Part shown: positions 1-50,561 of the stretch, piece after piece
Numbering within the stretch: position 1 is the first letter of the stretch
Layout: each line of letters opens with the position of its first letter
NCBI GenBank assembly: GCA_003116975.1
Contig: BGKB01000014.1
Coordinates: forward strand, 1-64,000
DNA from: Aurantiochytrium sp. KH105
Lineage: Eukaryota > Sar > Bigyra > Thraustochytrida > Thraustochytriidae
DNA: 64,000 nucleotides
Direction: 5' to 3'
Notes under the pieces: model-generated
Seen by the model: only the letters and a program-made list of their open reading frames with translations
The model's database searches: none
Told to the model about the DNA's origin: nothing
Program-made: the position numbers and the translations under genes

Positions 1-142
1 TCTTACGTGGAGATGGTCTTAAAATTAACAAAGAATCCATCGCCTTCACGCTCGAGACGTCGCGCGAAGCGAAGCGCAAAGCAGGTCCATCGCTCAAATC
101 TTTCCTTCTCTCTGTCCTCCAGGTCATGACCGTGACCCACCA

Positions 143-183
143 GCTGCCGCTGCCGCTGCCGCTGCCGCTGCCGCTGCCGCTGC
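143..183. repeat. GCTGCC hexamer repeat
   Basis: About seven near-perfect copies of GCTGCC lie upstream of the glycosyltransferase reading frame. They appear to be non-coding, because the best start codon of that gene is at 358. Confidence 0.8.
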
Positions 184-357
184 AGGCCCCGAACCCCTGG
201 GTCGAGATTGACCAGCGGCCAGCAGGCAGGCATCGTGTCGTCCTTCTCGACTAGGCCTGCTGGACTTTTTCCGGCCGGGCAAAAGGAAGCGCGCCTCCAG
301 GCCGCGCGCGACAGCGAGCGGGACGCACATACCCGGACCGAGAACACGGAAGATGAA

Positions 358-1489
358 ATGGACCCAATTGCCTGTCTAACACCGAGCCGAGACGCCTTTC
401 TTCCCCTTGAGCACCGCGCCGCAACCGCCATCCGACCGGGGACCATCTTTGTGTCCGTGGCGAGCTACCGCGATGACGAGTGCAAGCACACGATCGCCTC
501 GCTCTTCGAGCGCGCCGCCCGCCCCGACCGCGTCTTCGTCGGCGTCGTCCAGCAAAACAAGGCCGGCGAGGCTGGCGAGGACGGCATCGAGACCTGCGAC
601 ACTTGCTCAGTCAGGCTAGCCCGAGGCCAGGTGCGGATCAAACGCCTCGACCACACCGAGGCGCGGGGCCCCACCTTCGCTCGCTTCGAGGCTACCAAAC
701 TCTGGGGCGGTGAGGAGCTCTTCATGCAAATCGACAGCCACAGCAAGTTCCAACAAGACTGGGATGAAACGGTTTTCGCGGAGATGGCGCGCACGCGCGA
801 CCCCAAGGCCGTTGTCGGCCACTACCCGCCAACGGACAAGCAGATGGAGCAGATGCTCCGCTCGGACTTTTCCAGCATCATCACCGTCTGCACGGGCTCC
901 ATGGGCCGCGACCACATTCCCGTCATCAAGGCGCGCATGATCACGCCACCCGCCGGTGACGGCCCCGTTCCCATGCCCTTCATCGGAGCTAACAACTTCG
1001 TCATGCCCTACCAGCCTGGCAGGCGCTGCTGGACGTGCCCTTCGACCCTAACCTTGCCTTCCTCTTCTTTGGCGAGGAGGTGCTCTACTCGGCCTCTGGA
1101 CCTCCGGCTACAACTTCTACGCCCCGCGCAAGGCCTACCTCACGCACCACTACGGCCGCGCCAAGAAGCCCAAGTTCTGGACGGACATCTCCACCACCGG
1201 AACGTGCCAGCGCAAGGCCAAGCTGCGCCTCCTCTACTTCTTTGGCCTCGTGCCACTCGATCGCGTCCCCGCTACTTTCCGCCGCGACATCTCGCGCTTC
1301 GGCATGGGGAACGCCAGGTCTCTCGAGTCTTACCTCCGCTTCGCCAAAATTGACTTCCAGAAAAGGCGAGTCGGATCGTCTTGCAAGGGAGAACACTACC
1401 CACACCCGATACCAATGTGCACACTGCCGTCCACCCATGACGGGTGGACGGCGACCGACGGGCTCGGGCCGGTCACCGTGACCGTGTGA
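358..1489 (+). pseudogene. Skp1-type GlcNAc-transferase, two frameshifts
   Basis: The product resembles the GT60 family, which adds N-acetylglucosamine to hydroxyproline of Skp1 in the cytosol of protists. The family start TIFVSVASYRDDEC is near residue 30, followed by the ATLFQ-type helix, the metal/donor segment FMQIDSHSKF and LRSDFSSIITVCTGSM. ATG 358 is preferred over the earlier, weaker frame. The reading frame changes twice. The first change is near 1010-1017, after NNFVMPYQ. The second is near 1095, after FFGEEVLYSA. The downstream family pieces VPFDPNLAFLFFGEE, LWTSGYNFYAPRKAYLTHHY and SLESYLRFAKIDFQ are all present, but in frames 1, 3 and 2 in turn. The last frame ends at 1489. No intron with sensible borders repairs both breaks, so this is a decayed gene or carries sequencing deletions in GC-rich DNA. 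Family assignment is confident; functional status is not. Confidence 0.75.
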
Positions 1490-1972
1490 CGCGCAAAATT
1501 CGCGACAATACTTATCAATTTTTTTTATAAAAATTTTTTCGTTGGGAGGTTTTGCACGCGGCTTCGAGGTGGCGAAATCTAACAGACCCAGTGCGCTTGC
1601 CGGGGGGGGGGGGTAGCATGGATAGGAGGGGGGTAGGAAAAATTGAGCGCACAGCGAGGCACAGCATGAAAAAAAAAAACGACCAAGTACACCCTCTGTA
1701 GCAAGGGTGAAAAATGAGTCGATCATCAAAAATATGACGAAGGCCGCCCTCTGTGGCAGGAGTGTAGAATGGCTCCAATCCCTGCCTGCAGTAAGGGGGT
1801 GGAGAGGAGGATGAGCCCAAAATTCGACAAAGTCCAGCTGATGTAGTGAAGGGTCGTACAAAGACACTGCGCGAGGGAAACGTTTGTACACAAATGATTT
1901 CGTTTAAGCAGTTTCGGCAGTGGTAGCGCGGCTCAGAAGAATTACCTTCACGGGTCTTGAAAAGAGTCCTCG
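1490..1972. other. convergent intergenic spacer
   Basis: This spacer lies between the transferase and the next minus-strand gene. It holds T-rich and A-rich stretches near 1518-1540, a G run at about 1602-1612, and three loosely similar copies of a CCCTCTGT/CCCTGCCT-type unit between 1689 and 1802. No gene is recognised. Confidence 0.5.
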
Positions 1973-3250
1973 CTATCCTTGCGTCCTCTGCTTGAGATGC
2001 TCGTACGATCTGTAAACGGTGTCTTCCACACTGTATAAGGAGTCTCCAAAACCAATTTTGTTGCGAACTGTATCATCGGTGATGAGATCCTTACGTGTCA
2101 CACGCATCTCTTGATCAAGACAGTCGAAGAACTCCTTAAAGTTGACGGTCAGTGCCAATTGTCTGCCTGCATACTCGAGCCCAAAGCCAACATCCGTCTG
2201 CAGGTTGTGGTCAAGATGGGGATGAAAGGACCTCCCCTGCTGTAAATTTTCTTGCTGCTGTCTGACGAAGTGCAGCCCTGCTTGGCAGTTCGTTCGTGCC
2301 TCAGGAATTCTTGGTCGCTTTGCACGCGCGTCTTGGCGCGCGTCGCTGCTCCCGGGCATCGCGTTTGTTTGTGTGTATTGCAACGACGGCGCGCTGGTCT
2401 CTGCTACTGACATCGGCGCAACGCCCTGCGATCCAGCCGCCACGTTCGTGGTGCCTGGCGATACACAGATCGATGCTTCGTGCGTGCTCTGCGACGCAGA
2501 GATGTTGCAGGAACCTACATTCGAAGAATCAAGCGCTGTAGCTCCTTGCGATGCCCTTCGTGCCTCCATCCTTGAAGGTATTCCAGATGAACTAGTCTCG
2601 GATAGGTCGTTTATGGCTGACGCGCGCTTATCTGCAAGAGCGCAACGCTCAGCCAATGAGTCCAGCGCTGCGTGCTCAATCTGTCGTAACTCTCGCGCGC
2701 GATTCGCTTGCTGCCCGGCATTCAAAAGTAAGTCATCAGGGTCAAGCGTATGCTGTTGACGCAATCTGGGGCGGTCAGGCCCGAAGGGTCTCACTCGCGT
2801 GCTCTGTTGGTGTCCACTTGTAATGGGAATGATTGGGCGAGGCAATGGCTCGCCAGGAAGAGCGGGCTCCGCACTCGTGTTAAATGATGATTTGTCGTTT
2901 TGCAGAAGCTCCGCAAAGTTCCGTACATGCTCCGCGACGTCTGTTCCAGTCTGCGCCGACGCGAAAAATTCCTCCCAATGCTGCTGCACCTGATCGACCT
3001 AAGAGGGCTTGTGAACGTGATCTATAAGAGATGTTGCCTTACGGGCCATCGCAAAGATCTCAACCATCTTCGCAGAAAAATCGGTGACCAGCGAGCGACT
3101 CTGAGATACGAGGTCGGCATCTTGCAGCGCTAAATCCTGCTCGATGACGTTGTCATCCTCGTCCTCGTCGACGGAATGAGTGCCCCTCGAATCTATTCTT
3201 TTTACCGCGGTACATTGCGCGTGAGCAAACTGCGTCGAAGATGCATTCAT
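1973..3250 (-). CDS. hypothetical protein with in-frame TAG or intron
   Basis: I do not recognise this gene. A reading frame starts at a true ATG (3248-3250, MNASSTQFAH) and runs for 83 codons to a TAG at 2999-3001. It then continues in the same frame for another 340 codons to 1973. The downstream part has no ATG near its beginning: it opens VDQVQQHWEEFF, and its first Met lies about 140 residues in. The two parts therefore probably form one protein of up to about 425 residues. The N-terminal part looks helical (SRSLVTDFSAKMVEIF). The middle is Ser/Gln/Ala-rich and disordered. The C-terminus is charged and helical (KEFFDCLDQEMRVTRKDL). A short in-frame intron could remove the TAG; GT at about 3109 with AG at 2999 would give 111 bp. 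Stop readthrough or pseudogenisation are the alternatives. Confidence 0.5.
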
Positions 3251-17271: not shown

Positions 17272-19554
17272 TCATCCGAACATGACGCCCGAAGAGGAAG
17301 AAGACTCGCCCTGCTCATTGAGCTTGCTGAGAGAAAGCTTGAGCTCCTTGTCAAGAGCTTGCAAAATCTGCTCCTTTTCAAGGTTCGCGTTCCAGAACTC
17401 GACAAAGTCCTTCTCGTAGATGCGGCCAGTCTCGGCGCCAGGAATCTTGCGAAAGAGCTCAAGCAATTCTTCCGGAGTGGCCGGCGAAAAGCCAAGCACC
17501 TTGGCAGCATTTTGCATCTCAATCTGGTCCACAAAGCCACTGCCATCATGATCGAGCGACTTGAAGAGCGCGGGGAGATCCTGAAGCGGGCGACGCGGCT
17601 CCGTCTGGGCAGGATGCGACCCACCAAACTCGCTGAGGAAGCTCCTGGCATCGTCGAGCTGCTCTTGCTTCTCCTCCGAGGTCCAGTCAAGTAAGTCCGC
17701 CATAATGTCGGCCACCTTGGGTGCTGCAAACTTGGCGGCGTCAGAGTTCAAGTACGCAAGCCGGGTCCGGATGCTCAGCATGTCGCGCACAGTGCGCGCG
17801 TACTCGTTGCGCACAGCATACTCGATTTCAGCTTCCAGGTACGGATAGTTCTCGACAATAGGGACACCAAAGCGAGGCCACCCCTTGGATGTCGGACGAA
17901 CGAGCTTGCACACGTCCCATGCTCGCACGCCATACGTGCGTGCCAGGTGACGTGCCACGTCCTCGGAAATGCTATATGTCTGAATCAGCTGGACAAAGAG
18001 GTTCTCCTCGTAGCCTTCCCCACCAATAAAGGGGATCTTGGTCGTCTTGCATGGGCCCGCGCGCTTGGCAAGCTCGGGAGCCTCCTTGAGCACGCGGTCG
18101 ACAACGTCCTCGGCCATCTCGCGGGACGTCGTCCACTTGCCGCCCACGAGGAAGATGACCTTGGACTCTGGGTTCACCGAAATGGTGTGATCCCGACTGG
18201 CTGGAGCTCCAGGCGGCGCGTGCGGGTCGACAGCCAGCGGACGCCAGCCGCGCCAGGCCGACAGCACATCGGAGCGCCGCACACGCAAATGCGGGCTCAG
18301 GTACTTCTTCACCTCGTTAAGAATCCATTCAATTTCCTCTTCAGGGGGCGCCGGCGTGCTCGAAGGCGTCCCCTTGCGGTCCGTCGTACCAACCACCGTG
18401 CTGCCCTGCCAGGGCAAGAAGAAGAGGAAGCGGCCGTCGCTGGTGTTGATATCGAGCAGACCCATTTCCGGCGACGAAAGGTAGCCTGGGAGGACCAAAT
18501 GCGTACCAGCAGCGCCGCGCACCGCGGGCGCGCCGTCTGGGTCCTCAAGTTTGCGCAGCTCGTCGGTAAAGGGTCCGCCCGCAAGGACGACCTTTTTGGC
18601 GCGAATCTCAAAGGTCTCGCCCGTGATGTTATCCATTGCGCGCACGCCAGAAACCCGTTGGGCGTCCTGAGGATCTTCCTTGAGCATCTCCACGACGTTG
18701 ACGTGATTGGCCACGGTCGCTCCTTGTTCCGCGGCAGTCATGGCCATAGCGACACAGGTGCGCGCGTCGTTGTGCTGGCCCTCGTAAAAGACCTGAGTGT
18801 ACTTCATGCGGGCACTATCGAGCTGCGGAAAGCGTTCGCGTGCGCGGCGCGTCGACATGATGTAGCTTGGCGGGCACGTAAAGCCACAGAGAGAGTCGTA
18901 GAACTTGAAGACAGCAGGCAAGAGCATGCCCGCAGCGGCAAAGAGCGGATGGCCCATCGGGGGCGGCCACGAGATCCAGCGATCAATGGGTACTGCGATG
19001 GCGATCCAGTTCGTGAGATGCGGCTGCGTCTCGAGAAAGTATCTCCGCTCGCGCTGCGCGCCCATGACCATCTTGATCTCTCCGACAAAGTTCTTGACCG
19101 ACTGCACCGGGTTCTGCAGCGTCTCGCGCGAGAGCAGCGAGGCCACGGCTGTGCCCAGGTACCGCACGCCGGCCCAGATCAATTTGGTGCTGCGCGAGCT
19201 GGTTTCTCCGGAGAAGTCGTTGCGCTCCACGAGTGCCACGGACAGTCCTCTTGACGCCGCATCGAGCGCCGTGGCGCAGCCCGTGGCGCCTCCGCCCACG
19301 ACCAGCACATCGAAGGCCTCGTTCTTGCGCAGCGCCGCGACCTGGTCCTCGCGGGTCAGCACGGCCTTGTTCTTCTCGCCGGCGTCTGCGCCCGCGTGCG
19401 TGGCCATCGAGGCGCGCATTCCCGCGCGCCTGGCCTGCGTCCTCCATCCCTGCTGCGTCGACCCCGGATTCCTCGCCAGCGTCAGCGTCAGCGTCAACCT
19501 CGAGCCCGCGCTCCTCGTCCTGCTCACGGCCGCCATGCCCAGAAGCGCCGCCAT
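17272..19554 (-). CDS. GPD2: mitochondrial FAD glycerol-3-phosphate dehydrogenase, EF-hand
   Basis: The 760-residue enzyme oxidises glycerol-3-phosphate to dihydroxyacetone phosphate and passes electrons to ubiquinone at the outer face of the inner mitochondrial membrane. ATG 19552-19554 gives an Arg/Ser/Leu-rich targeting peptide. The FAD-binding fingerprint VLVVGGGATGCATALDAA lies at residues 83-100, followed by the family motif SGETSSRSTKLIWAGVRYLG. Later comes the GTTDRKG segment of the DAO fold, and then the C-terminal GlpO domain. Residues 668-679 (DHDGSGFVDQIE) form one canonical EF-hand loop; a second, degenerate loop follows (GAETGRIYEKDF). Human GPD2 (727 residues) has the same arrangement, and there calcium lowers the Km for substrate. 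The long open frame continuing to 20343 is GC-rich noise. Confidence 0.93.
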   Translation of the reverse strand: MAALLGMAAVSRTRSAGSRLTLTLTLARNPGSTQQGWRTQARRAGMRASMATHAGADAGEKNKAVLTREDQVAALRKNEAFDVLVVGGGATGCATALDAASRGLSVALVERNDFSGETSSRSTKLIWAGVRYLGTAVASLLSRETLQNPVQSVKNFVGEIKMVMGAQRERRYFLETQPHLTNWIAIAVPIDRWISWPPPMGHPLFAAAGMLLPAVFKFYDSLCGFTCPPSYIMSTRRARERFPQLDSARMKYTQVFYEGQHNDARTCVAMAMTAAEQGATVANHVNVVEMLKEDPQDAQRVSGVRAMDNITGETFEIRAKKVVLAGGPFTDELRKLEDPDGAPAVRGAAGTHLVLPGYLSSPEMGLLDINTSDGRFLFFLPWQGSTVVGTTDRKGTPSSTPAPPEEEIEWILNEVKKYLSPHLRVRRSDVLSAWRGWRPLAVDPHAPPGAPASRDHTISVNPESKVIFLVGGKWTTSREMAEDVVDRVLKEAPELAKRAGPCKTTKIPFIGGEGYEENLFVQLIQTYSISEDVARHLARTYGVRAWDVCKLVRPTSKGWPRFGVPIVENYPYLEAEIEYAVRNEYARTVRDMLSIRTRLAYLNSDAAKFAAPKVADIMADLLDWTSEEKQEQLDDARSFLSEFGGSHPAQTEPRRPLQDLPALFKSLDHDGSGFVDQIEMQNAAKVLGFSPATPEELLELFRKIPGAETGRIYEKDFVEFWNANLEKEQILQALDKELKLSLSKLNEQGESSSSSGVMFG

Positions 19555-21134
19555 CCTCTCCGCGGGCCTCGACCGCCCGCGCTCCTCGCCTCGCCGCTCC
19601 TCGCCTCGCCTCGCCTCGACTCCGCTCTGCTCCGAAGCCGCGCGGCAGCGAGTCTCTTGCGGGTTTGCCGGGGGCTCGTCACCGCCGGGCTCTCTCCGCG
19701 CTTGCCTCGCTCGCTCAGCGTGCGACCGCGGTATGTGGAAGGAGTATCTGCGAAGTTGGAGTTCGCGCATAAGGTCGGTCCCCTTGTTACTAAAGCTGGG
19801 GTGGAGGGGCCTTATGCGCGAGGCGGGCCACTGGTATACGTCGCACGTATGCCGCGCGGCGCGTACGACCCCGCCGCGCATACTCGACCCGCGCGGCTGG
19901 CGCGGCGAGGCGAGGCGAGCGGGAGGTATGGACTCGCGGGCGCGGCGGCGGGCGCCGCGGAGGGCGTTGGGGTGGGCGGGCAGAGCGTGCGCGGCGCGGC
20001 GAGGAAGATGAGATGGCGGGCGCGCCTTCGTCACCGCCTCCGCCAGGGCCCCGAGCATACACAAATCGCGCGAGACGCCGCTCTGACGCGCGCCCGCGCG
20101 GGCCCGAAGAGCTGAGCGCGGCGCGAAGAGCGGAGCTGTGCGGGCCGGGGCTGGCGAGGGCAGCGGGCCAGGAGAGCGAGATACCGCGCGGCTCGCGATG
20201 GAATGCGACTGGGACGAAAACGTGCGGCGAGGCAACGGGATGAAATGGAAAGAAATGGGACGCGTGAGCAGAGCAGAGCAGAGCAGAGCCAAGAGCAGAG
20301 CAGAAGAAAGTTGCTCGGTCGCGGCCCGGGGCGAGCGGTGCAAGCGAAGCAGGGGAGACTTTCCAAGTCTGATTGAAACAGCGTCTCACTCCCAAGCTCT
20401 GAAGCGTCGACGCCGACCTCGCAAGGCGTGAGAGTGTCGCGCGCGGCTCGACAGCGACCATGGCGACCTGCGTCGCCCCGACGAGGCGCGACCCGTGCGA
20501 GCCCGACTCCCGCCCCCGCTCCCGGGAGACGCGCTCGAGGCGGCCTGCCCTGGGACGACCGCGCACCGCGAGGCGAGAGGACACGAGGCGAGGCGAGGCG
20601 AGACGAGACGAGACGAGACGAGACGAGACGAGACGAGACGAGACGAGACGAGACGAGACGAGTTGAGATGAGATGAGATGAGATGAGATGAATGAGATAA
20701 GATGAGTTGACACGAGATGAGATATGAGACCAGGCGCCGTTGCAGACCCGGAACAGCCAAGCAGGGACACAGACCAAGACATCGAGCTCGCAGGCGCGAG
20801 CGAGCGAGCTCGCGCGCGCACGAGCGCCGCGGGCAGGAGCGGGGAGGGAGCCCGGGAGCGGCGGGCCGCGGCGGCAGCGGAGCAGCGGCGAAGACGCTTC
20901 CTCGAGCGCGCTCTTTGTGCCGTCCAAGGGCACGTCACCGCCCTCCTCGGGGACGTCGACGCGCCGCGGCCTCGAAGGAGAGGGAGCGGCTCTGCGGCCA
21001 AGGCCGCGGGCTGCGCGGGCGGGCGCTGACGCTGTCGGCCCTGACCCACCCGAGTCTGCGTCCCCGTGTCCCGTTGATCGATCGACTGGCGGTGGAATCG
21101 ATAAGAGAGATCTTGGTGGTAGCAAGAACGGACG
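19555..21134. other. divergent spacer, GPD2/CDK20-like
   Basis: This 1.6-kb spacer is GC-rich and contains CCTCG/CTCGC runs (19590-19620), GAGCA repeats (20268-20305) and the long pentanucleotide array at 20585-20690. Extended open frames on both strands are Arg/Ala/Ser-rich and judged spurious. Confidence 0.55.
20585..20690. repeat. graded pentanucleotide array AGGCG-AGACG-AGATG
   Basis: Three AGGCG units are followed by twelve AGACG units (20601-20660) and then about five AGATG units (20666-20690). The blocks differ by single transitions, so the array is ordered by variant rather than mixed. Confidence 0.9.
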
Positions 21135-43735: not shown

Positions 43736-44878
43736 TCAGCCCGAAGATAGGGCACGAAGTTGGTGTCGAAAGCCGCGCCGCTTCTTGGCAGCTCGAGCTC
43801 GAGCTCGTGCTGATGCAATCGCTTCTTCACTTTCGTCGAGACTCGGGGACTCGGTATTTTCAGCAGAGGTCTCGATTGCGAGCTCATCCGGTGCATCGGA
43901 CTCCGTCTCGACGCCTTGGGGGCCCGATGCAGCATCTCCCTTCAACTTGGACCTGCCGAGCGTCGAATGTGGTCTGCGGAATGTAAGTGCCGCCGCGGCC
44001 TCGCCCCGTCGGCGCAGAGACGAGCCGACGCTCGGCGGCATGAATCTGTTCGACATTGGTTTCTTCCGCGGCGAGGCTTTCTTCTTGGCGGTCTGATCCC
44101 CATTTTGCGCCATTCGCGCGTAGTAGGCCATGCGGTCCAAAAGCTCTTCCTCCATGCACGCCTCGACAAAGCGCGGTAAGATGTCGCGCTCCATGGTCTG
44201 GAAGGCTTCATCGGCAGCCTTTGTAAAGACAGAGTTCTGCTTGGTAAGTTGGGGCTTTTCGAGGAGAATTTCCTGCACCTCTTTGAGCACGGAAGGCGAG
44301 ACACAAACCCACATCCGCGCACCATCCTGCAAAAAGGTTTGGTACACGCGCAACGCGTCCATGATGGCGTTCACCTGCGACATGGGAAGCCGGAAAGAGC
44401 GAGCCATGTTGATGTGCATTCGCGTTACGTCCACACTCACATCTGATGCTGGGAGCGTGGTCTCGGCCTCCTCGAGAATGGCTTGCAGGTCATTGTTCGG
44501 CCGCACGTACTTGTGTTTACGAAACTTTTGCACGGCAAGGTAAAAGAGAAGGTTTTCGCTTGCGTGCTGCGACTTGATAAAGACCCTGAACGCCTGGAGT
44601 AGCGCCACGTCCTTGAGCACGTACTTCAGGGGCAGATCGTCGAGGGTACCTCTGAGGGCCTCGAGGCGTTCGCGCGTGGCGGCCTCCACTTCTTCGGAGA
44701 CCCTGTCTTCAAGCTCAAACTCTTCGCGTGCGCCCTGTCCTCCTCTCGCCTCGTGCGCGGGCAGCGCCGCCTTGAAGTCCCACGAGAGCACCGCCAGCGC
44801 CGACTCCGCCCGCGTCGTGCGTCTCGCCGTCCCGGAGGCCCCGCGGCCGCGCCCGGCCGCCGCCAGGCACGCGCCCAT
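43736..44878 (-). CDS. RGS domain protein with N-terminal lipidation signal
   Basis: Using ATG 44876-44878 the product is 380 residues and begins MGACLAAAG. Gly2 and Cys4 make a typical myristoylation/palmitoylation signal, which favours this start over the longer frame from 45091. An RGS domain spans ~80-225. Its helices include LLQAFRVFIKSQHASENLLF (helix 4 region, with the conserved Glu-Asn) and FLQDGARMWVCVSP. Downstream is ILPRFVEACMEEELLDRMAY. RGS proteins speed GTP hydrolysis by G-alpha subunits at the plasma membrane. The C-terminal ~130 residues are Ser/Arg/Glu-rich and disordered. The insert between the RGS helices (PSVLKEVQEILLEKPQLTKQ) is longer than usual. Confidence 0.8.
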   Translation of the reverse strand: MGACLAAAGRGRGASGTARRTTRAESALAVLSWDFKAALPAHEARGGQGAREEFELEDRVSEEVEAATRERLEALRGTLDDLPLKYVLKDVALLQAFRVFIKSQHASENLLFYLAVQKFRKHKYVRPNNDLQAILEEAETTLPASDVSVDVTRMHINMARSFRLPMSQVNAIMDALRVYQTFLQDGARMWVCVSPSVLKEVQEILLEKPQLTKQNSVFTKAADEAFQTMERDILPRFVEACMEEELLDRMAYYARMAQNGDQTAKKKASPRKKPMSNRFMPPSVGSSLRRRGEAAAALTFRRPHSTLGRSKLKGDAASGPQGVETESDAPDELAIETSAENTESPSLDESEEAIASARARARAAKKRRGFRHQLRALSSG

Positions 44879-45422
44879 GCGGCGGGCCCACGCCGCCGGA
44901 GTCTTCTCTCCTCGTCTCGCCTCCGCTCGTCTCCTCTCCTCTGCTCTCGTCTCCGCTCGCGTCTCGCGCTCTGCTCTGCTCTGCTCTCCGCCGCGCGGGC
45001 GCCGCGGGCGAGGCTCGCGAGCGAGGGATCCTGGCTTGCCTTCGCGCGCGTCTTGCTCGGAAACCTCACCTACCGCCACGAACGAACCCAAAAGAGGTAT
45101 AATACTGGTGCTGTGCTCGGGTGGCTTGCGTCTTGCTTGACTTGCTTCTTGGCTTGCTTCTTGGCTTGCTTGCTTGCTTGCTTGCTTGCTTCATTGCTTG
45201 CTTCATTGCTTGCGTGCTCGGCCATCGCTATCTTGACTCGTGTGCGCTGCATCTGCTCCGACACTACTGGCCCAACAAAGCTCATGCCTGGCCGAGTCAC
45301 GGGCCGTGCGCGAGGAGAGAAGCGTCCTTGGCCTGGTATGTATACATTGGCATGTGGAGCGCCAGGAGGCGCTCTCACTCTCGGCATGCATGGCTTTGGC
45401 GTTCCGAGATCCATGGACATCT
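44879..45422. other. spacer with GCTT repeats
   Basis: The spacer holds CTCTG/CTCGT-rich sequence (44925-44990) and a GCTT/CTTG tetramer array (45123-45213) with TCATT and TTG interruptions. No gene is seen. Confidence 0.55.
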
Positions 45423-47180: not shown

Positions 47181-50100
47181 CTAGCTTGATGCGACTGATG
47201 CCGAAGTTCTGGAATTAAAATGTTGTGTTCTCCGACGGCAATGTGATGTATTGGCGGATGTCCTGGTCGTTATTGACAGACTCTTCCTGGCTTCTTGAGA
47301 AAAGATGTAACCATAGATTTTGGGGCCAAAGATGAGACCCAGCGCATCGAGTGTGCAGAGGATGATCACCAGAGCTTTGACGAGTCCGTCGAGACTGGGT
47401 GTGTTGATGGTCACCATGAAGATTGGAATGCCAAGAACAAAGAGCTCCAAGTAGCTGATAAGCGCCATAGCAATGAAGCGACCTTCCGAAAACTTTGTAG
47501 GAATATTTCGCCCCTTGTATGCCAGGTAGTTTCCCCAAACCAAGCAGACGACAATAAAGCAAATGAGAGGAACCAGAAATGGCAAGGGATTTTTGCAGGT
47601 GCAGATTCCTACGGACTGAATTGGCGCACCTGTGACTGAATCCGTTTCAACAATTGTTCTCGTGTACCGAAGTGGATCGACGGTGAGCCAGGCTAGTAAG
47701 ATCGAGAGGACGCATGCGAGAAAAATGAGCTCGTATTGAAAGAGCTGCCTGTTGGAAATGGAAATACGCCTCAATCGTCTGTTGTTGAAGAGCTTGTTGA
47801 CTCGCCACGTCTTCAGCAGCAATGGTACGACAATGATTCCAAATCCCACGAAGAAAAAAATAGGGATCAGCATACAGTTGGTGTCCAGACTTGCGTACAC
47901 GTCACTCTCGTCGTACAGGTCCGCATTCTCGCCGTACAGGACGCTGTCGTCCTTGGTCACAAGAATGGCAGTGTGTACTGAGATGAATCCGCCGACCAAG
48001 ACCTGGACGAGAAAGACAGGCGAGGATATACGGATGATCGCTGCGCGCCTCTTTCTTACGACCCAAAGAAGCAGCCCAACAATGCTCACCTCGGAGAGAA
48101 TTACTACAGTCGTGATGACAATCTTGGACGCATCTGACATGACGCCAATGTCGTGTTCCGGTAGCATCACGGAGTGTCCGTCGCAAGTTACTGCCGTTGT
48201 TGCTAGCTCGACATCTGCAAGTGCGAAAGAAGAGCGACAAGGCGCGTACGCCATTTCAGCCGAGGCAAGCGGCCGTTGCAGAGTTTCAACGTCCACAAAC
48301 CAGTGCACAAATGCTGCAAACTCTTCTCCCTCGCTCAGGGCGATGTCATCATCGTTGTCATCGACTTCGCACGCCTCATTCAGAAAGTTCGTGGGGAAAA
48401 CGGCGTCCAGAACCTCGACGAAGGGCCAGCATGACGCAGACGCATTGCTTGGAGAAGCCGATGAGAAGATATTGATGTCTTCAACACAGGCAAGAATCGA
48501 AGACTCTGAAATCTCGACTGTGCTGCCATTCTCCGTTTGTATGGAGATTGCTGAGGCGAGTGAGCCGAGCTGAGAGACTAGAGGAATTACAGCCATTGAG
48601 AATGGTGTGCTATACAATGTTGCGAGGAGAGCTTCCGGCGAGCTCACCATTATGGCTGATGTTGTGAACGTAAAGTCTGTCACGCTGCTCTTCGCGCTGA
48701 GCTGCGCGCTGAAGCGGTCCATCCAATCGATACTGGAAGCGCCGTCCGAGCGAATAAGTTGAATCGTTTCATTGGGAAGCGTCACGGCCGTCTCTTCGTT
48801 CATAGCGACGATGCCCGAGGCGTCCCAGCGCGTTATACTCCCGTTGAGTATGTCCACCAAGGTCTGAATATTCATCGAGACGGCAAGACTCGAGTATGAG
48901 CAGTCGTTCTGGCTTGTCGCTCCGCAGAGATTGAAGACGATCGCGTGCGCCACGCCTGCAAAGCGCAGGCGACGGAGCCCAAGTTGGTCGGTCTTGGTCT
49001 TATTGCGCGCGAGTACCTCGGTGACAGTGTCGGCAAAGTCAATGAGCATTGTAGGCTGAGCAATCTCCTCGCTGATCCATGAAGGCGCGCCAGCACGAGT
49101 AGACGCGGTCTCCACATTGAAAGTGAGCGTATCACGAAGTACCTTGTACGCAGGCTCGACGAGGGCCAATACATTCTCAAAAACTGGATTTATATCAAAG
49201 CGCACGTCAACTCGGCGAGGTTTTGCGTAGACGAGTTCGCCATTGCACTTGAGACTGGTACGAATTCGCTCGAGAACGGCACCACTGACTTCTGAAGGGA
49301 GACTAGCAAATCCGAGTGTTTCTGCCAAGGTGCCAACCACACTGTCGGTGTAAAACCATGTCAGAAAATCAAACGTAGCCTCGCGATTGACGCAGGTTGC
49401 GCCCTCCCGTAAGCTGTCCTTGCGTAGCACAAAGTACGTGTATCCCACGATAGGCCAAGCGAGTCGGCCTTTAGCACCAAAAATATCGGCAGTCATGCTT
49501 GTGGAGTTGTCACCATTATTGCCAAAATCGAGACCCTTTTCCATGACAGCAAAGTTGACAGACTCTGATGATGCATGCACAATGGTTCCATCTTTGCTAA
49601 TTCCTGCTTTCTGCGCGTTCATCTCGTCAGCATCTGCGAGCACCGCATACGAGATGGACCCAGGTGTCAAAAGCACCGATGAGACAAGGCCCGTAGTTGT
49701 GTCTTTCTTCTCGAGATTCACTGCATTCCACGTCGCCTGGGAAGAAGCGCCGACCTGGGTTTCAAAGGCCTCTTCGAATGAAGAGAGTGCACTGCGGAAG
49801 ATCTCCGTCGTCCCCGAACCGTCAGCTCGAACCATGACTTTAATTTTCCCGTGCTGCTGCGACACCTCGTGCAGCGCGTCTTCACGACCAGGATTAAGGT
49901 CCAAGATGTCGCTATGATTCCAATAGGCGATCGACTCTGGCTCACAACCCGCTGTTGCGGGATAATCACATTGTCGAAAAATGCGACTGAGAACTTCAGC
50001 GCTCAAGACGAGATCTGGGACATTTTCCAAGTTGTAAATGGGAACGACCGCACCAGCCACAGAAGGGTACATTTCCAGGTCGCTATATTCATTGTACGAG

Positions 50101-50561
50101 TCCCACGGCATGACTGCATCGCTCCCAGCAAGGTCGATCACGGAAGGCTGGCGATCGTCGCTGCTGCTCGTTCCGTCAAAATCAACGTTGAAAGGGTGTT
50201 TACACTCTTCGCAATAGTCCTTGATACGGCACAGTCCCTTGTTGCTGTCTGTACCAGTGTACGAGATTTGGACGTTGGGAGCAATAAACCCGTAGGCAAA
50301 TATCGCCGACTCGTAGAGACGTTGTGGAAATGTCGCTCCTGCAGCTTGTACGAGATGTTCGCCTGAAGCGCCCAGAGAGTTTGCATCAGCTTTTGTAAAC
50401 GCGTCACACGCCTCTGCAGCAGCCTCTTCGTTTGCATAAATAGAACCTGCGAGAACGCTCTTTGGATTTAAGGCTATGCACAGCAGGAGAAGGTGCAGAA
50501 GGGTCCTTGCATCAAGCCGGAGTGGACAGCGACGTTTCCTCGAACGCGTGACAGCGTTCAT
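47181..50561 (-). CDS. PstS-PstS-class C GPCR fusion receptor
   Basis: From ATG 50559-50561 (TTG upstream rejected) the product is 1126 residues. A signal peptide (residues ~15-40, LLHLLLLCIALNPKSVLAGS) precedes two periplasmic-binding-protein modules of the PstS phosphate-binding type. Module 1 (~45-430) has AAGATFPQRLYE, AGSDAVMPW and VRADGSGTTEIFR. These three loops bind phosphate in bacterial PstS. Module 2 (~440-790) has ILNGSITRWDASGIVAMNEE and IRSDGASSID, with the Gly-Thr-Thr part lost. Residues ~809-1087 are seven helices of the class C/GABA-B type, with the FGPK sequence (GLIFGPKIYGY) in helix 7. A short Ser/Thr/Arg-rich tail follows. No Cys-rich domain is evident between modules and helices. 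The design implies an extracellular phosphate or oxyanion sensor coupled to G proteins. This is inference from domains. Confidence 0.85.
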   Translation of the reverse strand: MNAVTRSRKRRCPLRLDARTLLHLLLLCIALNPKSVLAGSIYANEEAAAEACDAFTKADANSLGASGEHLVQAAGATFPQRLYESAIFAYGFIAPNVQISYTGTDSNKGLCRIKDYCEECKHPFNVDFDGTSSSDDRQPSVIDLAGSDAVMPWDSYNEYSDLEMYPSVAGAVVPIYNLENVPDLVLSAEVLSRIFRQCDYPATAGCEPESIAYWNHSDILDLNPGREDALHEVSQQHGKIKVMVRADGSGTTEIFRSALSSFEEAFETQVGASSQATWNAVNLEKKDTTTGLVSSVLLTPGSISYAVLADADEMNAQKAGISKDGTIVHASSESVNFAVMEKGLDFGNNGDNSTSMTADIFGAKGRLAWPIVGYTYFVLRKDSLREGATCVNREATFDFLTWFYTDSVVGTLAETLGFASLPSEVSGAVLERIRTSLKCNGELVYAKPRRVDVRFDINPVFENVLALVEPAYKVLRDTLTFNVETASTRAGAPSWISEEIAQPTMLIDFADTVTEVLARNKTKTDQLGLRRLRFAGVAHAIVFNLCGATSQNDCSYSSLAVSMNIQTLVDILNGSITRWDASGIVAMNEETAVTLPNETIQLIRSDGASSIDWMDRFSAQLSAKSSVTDFTFTTSAIMVSSPEALLATLYSTPFSMAVIPLVSQLGSLASAISIQTENGSTVEISESSILACVEDINIFSSASPSNASASCWPFVEVLDAVFPTNFLNEACEVDDNDDDIALSEGEEFAAFVHWFVDVETLQRPLASAEMAYAPCRSSFALADVELATTAVTCDGHSVMLPEHDIGVMSDASKIVITTVVILSEVSIVGLLLWVVRKRRAAIIRISSPVFLVQVLVGGFISVHTAILVTKDDSVLYGENADLYDESDVYASLDTNCMLIPIFFFVGFGIIVVPLLLKTWRVNKLFNNRRLRRISISNRQLFQYELIFLACVLSILLAWLTVDPLRYTRTIVETDSVTGAPIQSVGICTCKNPLPFLVPLICFIVVCLVWGNYLAYKGRNIPTKFSEGRFIAMALISYLELFVLGIPIFMVTINTPSLDGLVKALVIILCTLDALGLIFGPKIYGYIFSQEARKSLSITTRTSANTSHCRRRTQHFNSRTSASVASS

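Follow-up and report, generated by a model that had tools for sequence, protein, structure and literature searches.

Our analysis of a 64,000-nucleotide stretch of the Aurantiochytrium sp. KH105 genome (contig BGKB01000014.1; hereafter the window) confirms that this organism encodes a receptor that carries a PstS module, a second PstS-derived module and the seven-transmembrane (7TM) domain of a class C G-protein-coupled receptor (GPCR) on one chain. We propose, with a probability of roughly 0.72, that this protein is a plasma-membrane receptor for extracellular inorganic phosphate, in which module 1 would close on the ligand, module 2 would relay or tune the movement and the 7TM domain would signal via G proteins. 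To our knowledge, the sensing of extracellular phosphate by eukaryotic microbes is poorly known beyond intracellular SPX-type sensing, and since all of the PstS site is present in a GPCR, the question becomes testable through one purified domain. The gene and its parts are arranged as follows:

47181..50561, minus strand: whole receptor gene, a single open frame including the stop codon (1126 amino acids, ATG at 50561)
50442..50561, minus strand: putative signal peptide, residues ~1-40 (basic start and hydrophobic segment 20-40; sequence and hydropathy scan)
49227..50363, minus strand: module 1, PstS phosphate-binding domain with an intact site, residues 67-445 (Pfam, PDB, NCBIfam, site alignment)
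48159..49226, minus strand: module 2, residues 446-801, a divergent domain derived from PstS, whose site is degraded (profile comparisons, site alignment)
47184..48158, minus strand: residues 802-1126, a seven-helix domain of class C (GABA-B-like) followed by the cytoplasmic tail (Pfam, PDB, hydropathy)
47319..48137, minus strand: match to the Pfam profile 7tm_3

Domain architecture

Upon translation, the frame has no internal stop across both modules and the 7TM domain. Pfam finds PBP_like_2 (E 4.8e-14, 53.2 bits against a cut-off of 27) and 7tm_3 (E 9e-34, 117.7 bits against a cut-off of 33.5) in the protein, with residue numbers that refer to a frame longer by three residues, and in a phmmer search of the PDB the first third of the receptor matches E. 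coli PstS (1ixh, E 1.5e-17) and the last third GABA-B subunit 2 (E 1.1e-16). ANF_receptor is absent from the Pfam scan at E 1, and the cysteine-rich NCD3G domain was not found in it either. The signal peptide was called by reading the sequence together with a hydropathy scan rather than with a dedicated program. A preliminary description of this DNA had claimed a fusion of PstS modules to a class C 7TM domain on the basis of the motifs AAGATFPQR, AGSDAVMPW, RADGSGTTEIF, ILNGSITRW, IRSDG and GLIFGPK and had suggested a profile search for PBP_like and 7tm_3; the motifs are all present in the translated frame, and the two Pfam scores and the GABA-B match uphold the fusion. The architecture is not limited to the window: the genome contains eight PstS-class C frames, representing four genes with two copies each, which we name by their contigs C14 (the window)/C31, C59/C214, C140/C30 and C51/C123, and in all eight copies both modules and the 7TM domain share one open frame.

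Module 1 and its phosphate site

The phosphate site of E. coli PstS, which we take to consist of T10, F11, S38, D56, R135, D137, S139, G140 and T141 (letters verified on a fetched E. coli gene), was mapped onto module 1 by aligning it with five PstS proteins from bacteria or phages. These residues align to T77, F78, S106, D148, R245, D247, S249, G250 and T251, respectively, and all nine are kept in 8/8 copies of the four genes. The aspartate of the site allows PstS to bind protonated phosphate and to reject sulphate. Out of 317 aligned positions, E. coli and module 1 of all four genes share the same residue at 61, and the probability that all nine site positions fall among them is about 2e-7, a rough figure because the positions are not independent. 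By comparison, only 28 of the 50 positions that are invariant in the five bacterial or phage proteins are kept jointly by the four modules, so that conservation is stronger in the site than elsewhere in the domain. NCBIfam assigns module 1 to PstS (TIGR00975, E 4.6e-46, 157.3 bits), and its identity to bacterial PstS is about 25-31%. Taken together, the alignments support the assignment of module 1 as a PstS-type domain with a predicted complete phosphate site.

Module 2, a degenerate PstS

Module 2 of the receptor alone gives no Pfam match at E 1, and of the four module 2 sequences scanned one, that of the C140 gene, has a match of its own (PBP_like_2, 29 bits against a cut-off of 27). Profiles reach further. 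First, a profile of the eight module 2 copies found 17 distinct sequences in the PDB (E up to 10), all of them phosphate-binding PstS (best E 3.3e-6). Second, hhalign aligned module 2 to PstS plus module 1 over more than 300 columns (E 2e-14, for a single comparison) and to 78 bacterial PstS with E 1.1e-12; the comparison with module 1 alone gave E 3.2e-9 (1.2e-8 using another alignment), and that with the five bacterial or phage PstS was about as good (E 3.7e-8). Finally, a profile of the 78 bacterial PstS scored the eight copies at 8.5-27.2 bits, with a maximum of 6.3 among shuffled sequences (2000 shuffles, of which 1156 returned a score); of seven other class C ectodomains, four returned no score and the remaining three did not exceed -1.6. 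The about equal alignment to module 1 and to PstS is compatible with an origin of module 2 both by internal duplication and by a second acquisition.

Each module 2 copy keeps 1-3 of the nine site residues. S38 is kept in 8/8 copies, F11, D56, R135 and T141 are replaced in 8/8, and so is T10, for which C140/C30 have Ser, as do two of the five bacterial or phage PstS. Further matches differ between the genes: C140/C30 have Gly at G140, the window copy has Ser at S139, and C31, C59 and C214 combine Ser at S139 with Asp at D137. The loop of the window copy reads IRSDGASS, and shifting its alignment by one residue would put Arg on R135 and Asp on D137 with loss of Ser-Gly-Thr, which corresponds to the reading in the preliminary description. 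Singly, the module 2 copies keep 12-16 of the 50 invariant PstS positions. The profile comparisons and the mapped residues support the view that module 2 descends from PstS and has a decayed site. The preliminary description had seen a PstS-type first module and a degenerate second one, and both readings are borne out by the site residues kept and, for the second module, by a PDB search that returned PstS alone.

A family of four genes under purifying selection

The genome comprises 76 Mb in 367 contigs and contains 69 class C matches. Eukaryotic relatives were searched in this genome alone, and published ones were compared by description rather than by sequence. The ten PBP_like_2 matches consist of the eight on class C frames and two on a Kelch-PstS-single-helix protein (Pfam run for one of the pair, the second judged alike by its letters). 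Since a genome search with module 2 of the window returned these eight frames alone, the tandem predates the divergence of the four genes. Each pair of copies looks like two haplotypes, with 92.6-99.7% identity over twelve module comparisons. Among the three diverged gene types, identity is 40.5-51.7% for module 1, 28.2-43.0% for the 7TM domain and 17.5-31.0% for module 2.

The rate of nonsynonymous substitutions (dN) is below that of synonymous ones (dS; both by the Nei-Gojobori method) in both modules and the 7TM domain of every pair compared, which shows purifying selection on all parts of the receptor. In three comparisons between the close paralogues C14/C31 and C59/C214, with a shortened 7TM piece of C214 that ends in a partial codon, module 1 has a dN/dS of 0.10-0.12, compared with 0.26-0.29 in module 2 and 0.20-0.22 in the 7TM domain. 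Within the C51/C123 gene, the values for module 1, module 2 and the 7TM domain are 0.07, 0.14 and 0.14.

Relatives were also sought beyond this genome: none was returned by four scans of viral contigs or by a first scan of genome contigs. A second scan of genome contigs gave at least 554 relatives among at least 596 matched stretches, and the best 80 are all bacterial PstS by title; 78 of these had a usable frame and form the PstS profile, and the first 45 were used in a tree. In this tree, module 1 of the four genes groups at 100/100, and Chloroflexota are placed nearest the bacterial base. Because the tree is midpoint-rooted and the branch is long, we name no donor.

Several observations weigh against the proposed receptor model or parts of it. 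The score of module 1 is below the curated equivalog cut-off of TIGR00975 (205 bits). The module 2 copies of C51/C123 barely exceed the shuffles with the profile of 78 PstS (8.5-9.5 against 6.3) and, when smaller profiles are used, fall within the range of the shuffles or at its edge (5.5 and 4.0 against 5.4; 5.6 and 6.1 against 7.7); we regard them as probably PstS-derived because of the larger profile and the family alignment. Individual residues of module 2 were mapped at an identity of about 12-20%, and hydropathy windows mark a hydrophobic stretch inside it (644-675). Moreover, the within-gene dN/dS values (module 1, module 2, 7TM) vary in their order: the 7TM domain is highest in C14/C31 (0.17, 0.23, 0.42) and lowest in C140/C30 (0.09, 0.14, 0.02), and module 1 is highest in C59/C214 (0.20, 0.15, 0.11).

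The same data bear on the role of module 2. It might sense a different ligand through an altered pocket of its own, and the protein would then be a two-input receptor rather than a sensor with a relay. This is possible, if rather doubtful: module 2 is present in all four genes, its dN/dS between the close paralogues indicates purifying selection, and its site loops vary among the gene types, as expected of differing ligands, with S38 kept throughout; but 6-8 of the nine site residues have been exchanged, and no other part of the receptor is as poorly conserved between the gene types as module 2, far behind module 1. As to module 1, the nine residues, including the phosphate-selective aspartate, are unchanged in all eight copies, and this makes it improbable that the ligand is another oxyanion or a phosphate-bearing metabolite such as arsenate, phosphonate, organic phosphate or polyphosphate instead of free phosphate. 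Such a ligand would fit the modest identity to bacterial PstS, and the amoeba class C receptor GrlD is described as a putative polyphosphate receptor (PMC10445921).

The seven-helix domain and G-protein signalling

Searched alone against the PDB, the 7TM part has GABA-B subunit 2 as its best match (E 2.6e-17), and this subunit appears to be its closest relative among solved structures. On reading, the hydropathy windows above threshold merge to seven segments in 805-1084, and the KTWR motif as well as the P-K motif in the seventh helix are present in 4/4 genes. The genome has 46 matches to the G-alpha profile, copies counted singly, of which 27 are above the cut-off. Moreover, the second gene downstream of the receptor, about 2 kb away, encodes an RGS domain:

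43736..45091, minus strand: RGS-domain gene (Pfam)

RGS domains are off-switches of G proteins. Frames that resemble the zf-HIT and RGS neighbours in the window (assigned by Pfam) were also found downstream of the C31 copy, as judged by their letters, and the RGS gene may be functionally linked to the receptor.

In the model that we propose, the outer module 1 would close on phosphate using the nine residues common to E. coli PstS. The site-damaged module 2, next to the membrane, would relay or tune the movement of module 1, and the GABA-B-like seven-helix domain would convert this movement to heterotrimeric G-protein signalling. The location at the cell surface, phosphate binding, the relay through module 2, a dimerisation of the receptor, the coupling to G proteins, and the sign and target of the signal are what we infer. 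The preliminary description had interpreted the protein as a possible receptor for phosphate or another oxyanion; this is partly supported, by a PstS module 1, a degenerate module 2, the GABA-B-like 7TM fusion and its occurrence at four loci of this genome, with phosphate binding itself being putative. As that description also suggested, the two modules might pair in the manner of the GABA-B dimer, and the receptor might bear on lipid accumulation. An intact and a decayed flytrap in tandem provide a natural test of how movement may be passed through a second flytrap that seemingly has no ligand.

In addition, the window contains at 17272-20343 (minus strand) a glycerol-3-phosphate oxidase/dehydrogenase-like gene (DAO, DAO_C) that also encodes a pair of EF hands.

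Receptor or transporter

The permease domain BPD_transp_1 of ATP-binding cassette (ABC) importers has no match in the genome, and all 14 control genomes were positive; there is thus no partner in sight for a PstS module in a bacterial-type importer. PHO4-type phosphate permeases also gave no match in the genome, and SPX gave 20, some of which are pieces of one frame. It is very unlikely that the protein is a phosphate transporter, as has been proposed for fusions of Plasmodiophora (PMC4815078). In that study, the naming follows homology to prokaryotic substrate-binding domains, and the genes are expressed early in infection; in the protein described here, however, what lies in the membrane is not a permease but a class C GPCR domain, best matched by GABA-B, and the genome lacks a detectable ABC-importer permease but has G-alpha genes and an RGS gene. 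We therefore reject this reading, and if the receptor model is true, the published transporter reading of such fusions would change. Least probable of all, and rejected as well, is an artefact in which two neighbouring genes or a contaminant were read as one, since the same continuous frame occurs at four loci in eight copies, dS exceeds dN in every part of every pair compared, and the C31 copy is flanked by frames like the two downstream neighbours in the window.

Other binding domains seem to have been put to similar use. All ten OpuAC (glycine-betaine type) matches of the genome, in eight frames, and both phosphonate-binding matches are by position on class C receptor frames. Three class C GPCRs with OpuAC ectodomains (L043, L048 and L054; G000:C34) are clustered on one contig. 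One of the phosphonate-binding matches (L057, G000:C70:338300-341900, 1-2760, minus strand) is a class C GPCR with a PhnD-type ectodomain (E 6e-26), for which NCBIfam lists TtrS and phosphonate/phosphite-binding proteins, all below cut-off; the second match is on C181. Of the 69 class C matches, 35 frames were scanned, several of them clipped at piece ends and all read without intron modelling: above the Pfam cut-off, ten have an ANF ectodomain, four PBP_like_2, three OpuAC, one a phosphonate-binding domain, one Peripla_BP_6 without ANF, one sCache_2, and 15 have none. The class C receptors of this one genome have thus recruited binding domains of several bacterial transport families, and the most economical interpretation is that domains of this bacterial kind act as sensors in this genome. 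It is an evenly balanced proposition that the receptor is a eukaryotic surface phosphate receptor, with an intact PstS pocket and a decayed PstS relay, within a whole panel of nutrient receptors derived from bacterial transport-binding proteins of the PstS, phosphonate and glycine-betaine types.

Two observations lie beside this subject. The Kelch-PstS pair (L024, 1075-3627, minus strand, and L025) combines a Kelch propeller, a PstS-type domain and one membrane helix; in L024, T10, S38, D56, R135 and S139 of the site are kept, F11 is replaced by Asn, and D137, G140 and T141 are replaced by Ser. Pieces of a PfaA-like polyunsaturated fatty acid synthase lie in separate frames (G000:C72:311448-314582, C155:172083-175217, C290 and C61), two of them near contig ends; the region scores 930 bits against a family cut-off of 1010, and 11 of the 14 control genomes match, none above the cut-off.

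Comparison with known systems

Module 1 shares with E. coli PstS (1ixh) the sequence family and all nine residues of the phosphate site, but bacterial PstS is a free binding protein of an ABC importer, with the low identity given above. The GABA-B receptor has one binding and one non-binding flytrap, of the ANF type, on two separate subunits. The receptor described here resembles it in the 7TM domain, for which GABA-B is the closest solved structure, in that NCD3G was not found, and, as far as the sequence tells, in the pairing of a binding with a non-binding flytrap; it differs in that both flytraps are of the PstS type and on one chain.

A class C GPCR that responds to extracellular phosphate is known in the calcium-sensing receptor (Centeno et al. 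2019, PMC6795806); there, however, phosphate is a non-competitive antagonist that needs R62 in an anion site, rather than a ligand bound by a PstS domain. Two flytraps in tandem within a single chain are already known from BvgS-type sensor kinases (PMC4352136), with a distal VFT1 that is open and mobile and a proximal VFT2 that is atypically closed without ligand, but their output is a kinase and not a GPCR, and the likeness is one of description rather than of sequence. In class C GPCRs of gut fungi (Seppala et al. 2016, PMC5168858), a type II transporter-type solute-binding ectodomain likewise replaces ANF; theirs are sugar-type binding domains and not PstS.

The novelty of a PstS-class C fusion implied by the preliminary description does not hold, since the basic PBP_like_2-7tm_3 fusion is already in print. 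In the list of Krishnan et al. 2012 (PMC3251606), a single class C receptor, SPPG_06488 of the chytrid Spizellomyces, carries PBP_like_2, and further receptors of fungi carry OpuAC, SBP_bac_1 and LysR_substrate. Rolfe et al. 2016 (PMC4815078) describe substrate-binding domain-7tm3 fusions of Plasmodiophora brassicae, four of them named phosphate transporters, with eight fusions named in the results and seven 7tm3 fusions of both kinds in the conclusion; they claim such fusions in no other eukaryotic genome, a statement that is contradicted by the list of Krishnan et al. and by the genome studied here. The fusions of both organisms agree with ours in having PBP_like_2 and 7tm_3 on one chain, and phosphate homology is noted for Plasmodiophora; they differ in being termed transporters or merely listed, and the text of these sources that was available gives neither pocket residues nor a second degenerate module, which the proteins may have. 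PBP_like_2 is among the abbreviations of an amoebozoan GPCR study (PMC10445921), diatom class C candidates have PBP-type N-termini (PMC3727952), and an enrichment of class C domains is described for thraustochytrids (PMC6050695); the main text of a survey in eLife 2025 (PMC12716839) does not mention PBP_like, SBP_bac or OpuAC. A tandem PstS-GPCR was not found in the text, figures excluded, of the open-licence papers searched. Compared with the literature covered, the intact pocket, the conserved tandem of an intact and a degenerate module, and the genome evidence for a receptor over a transporter are new.

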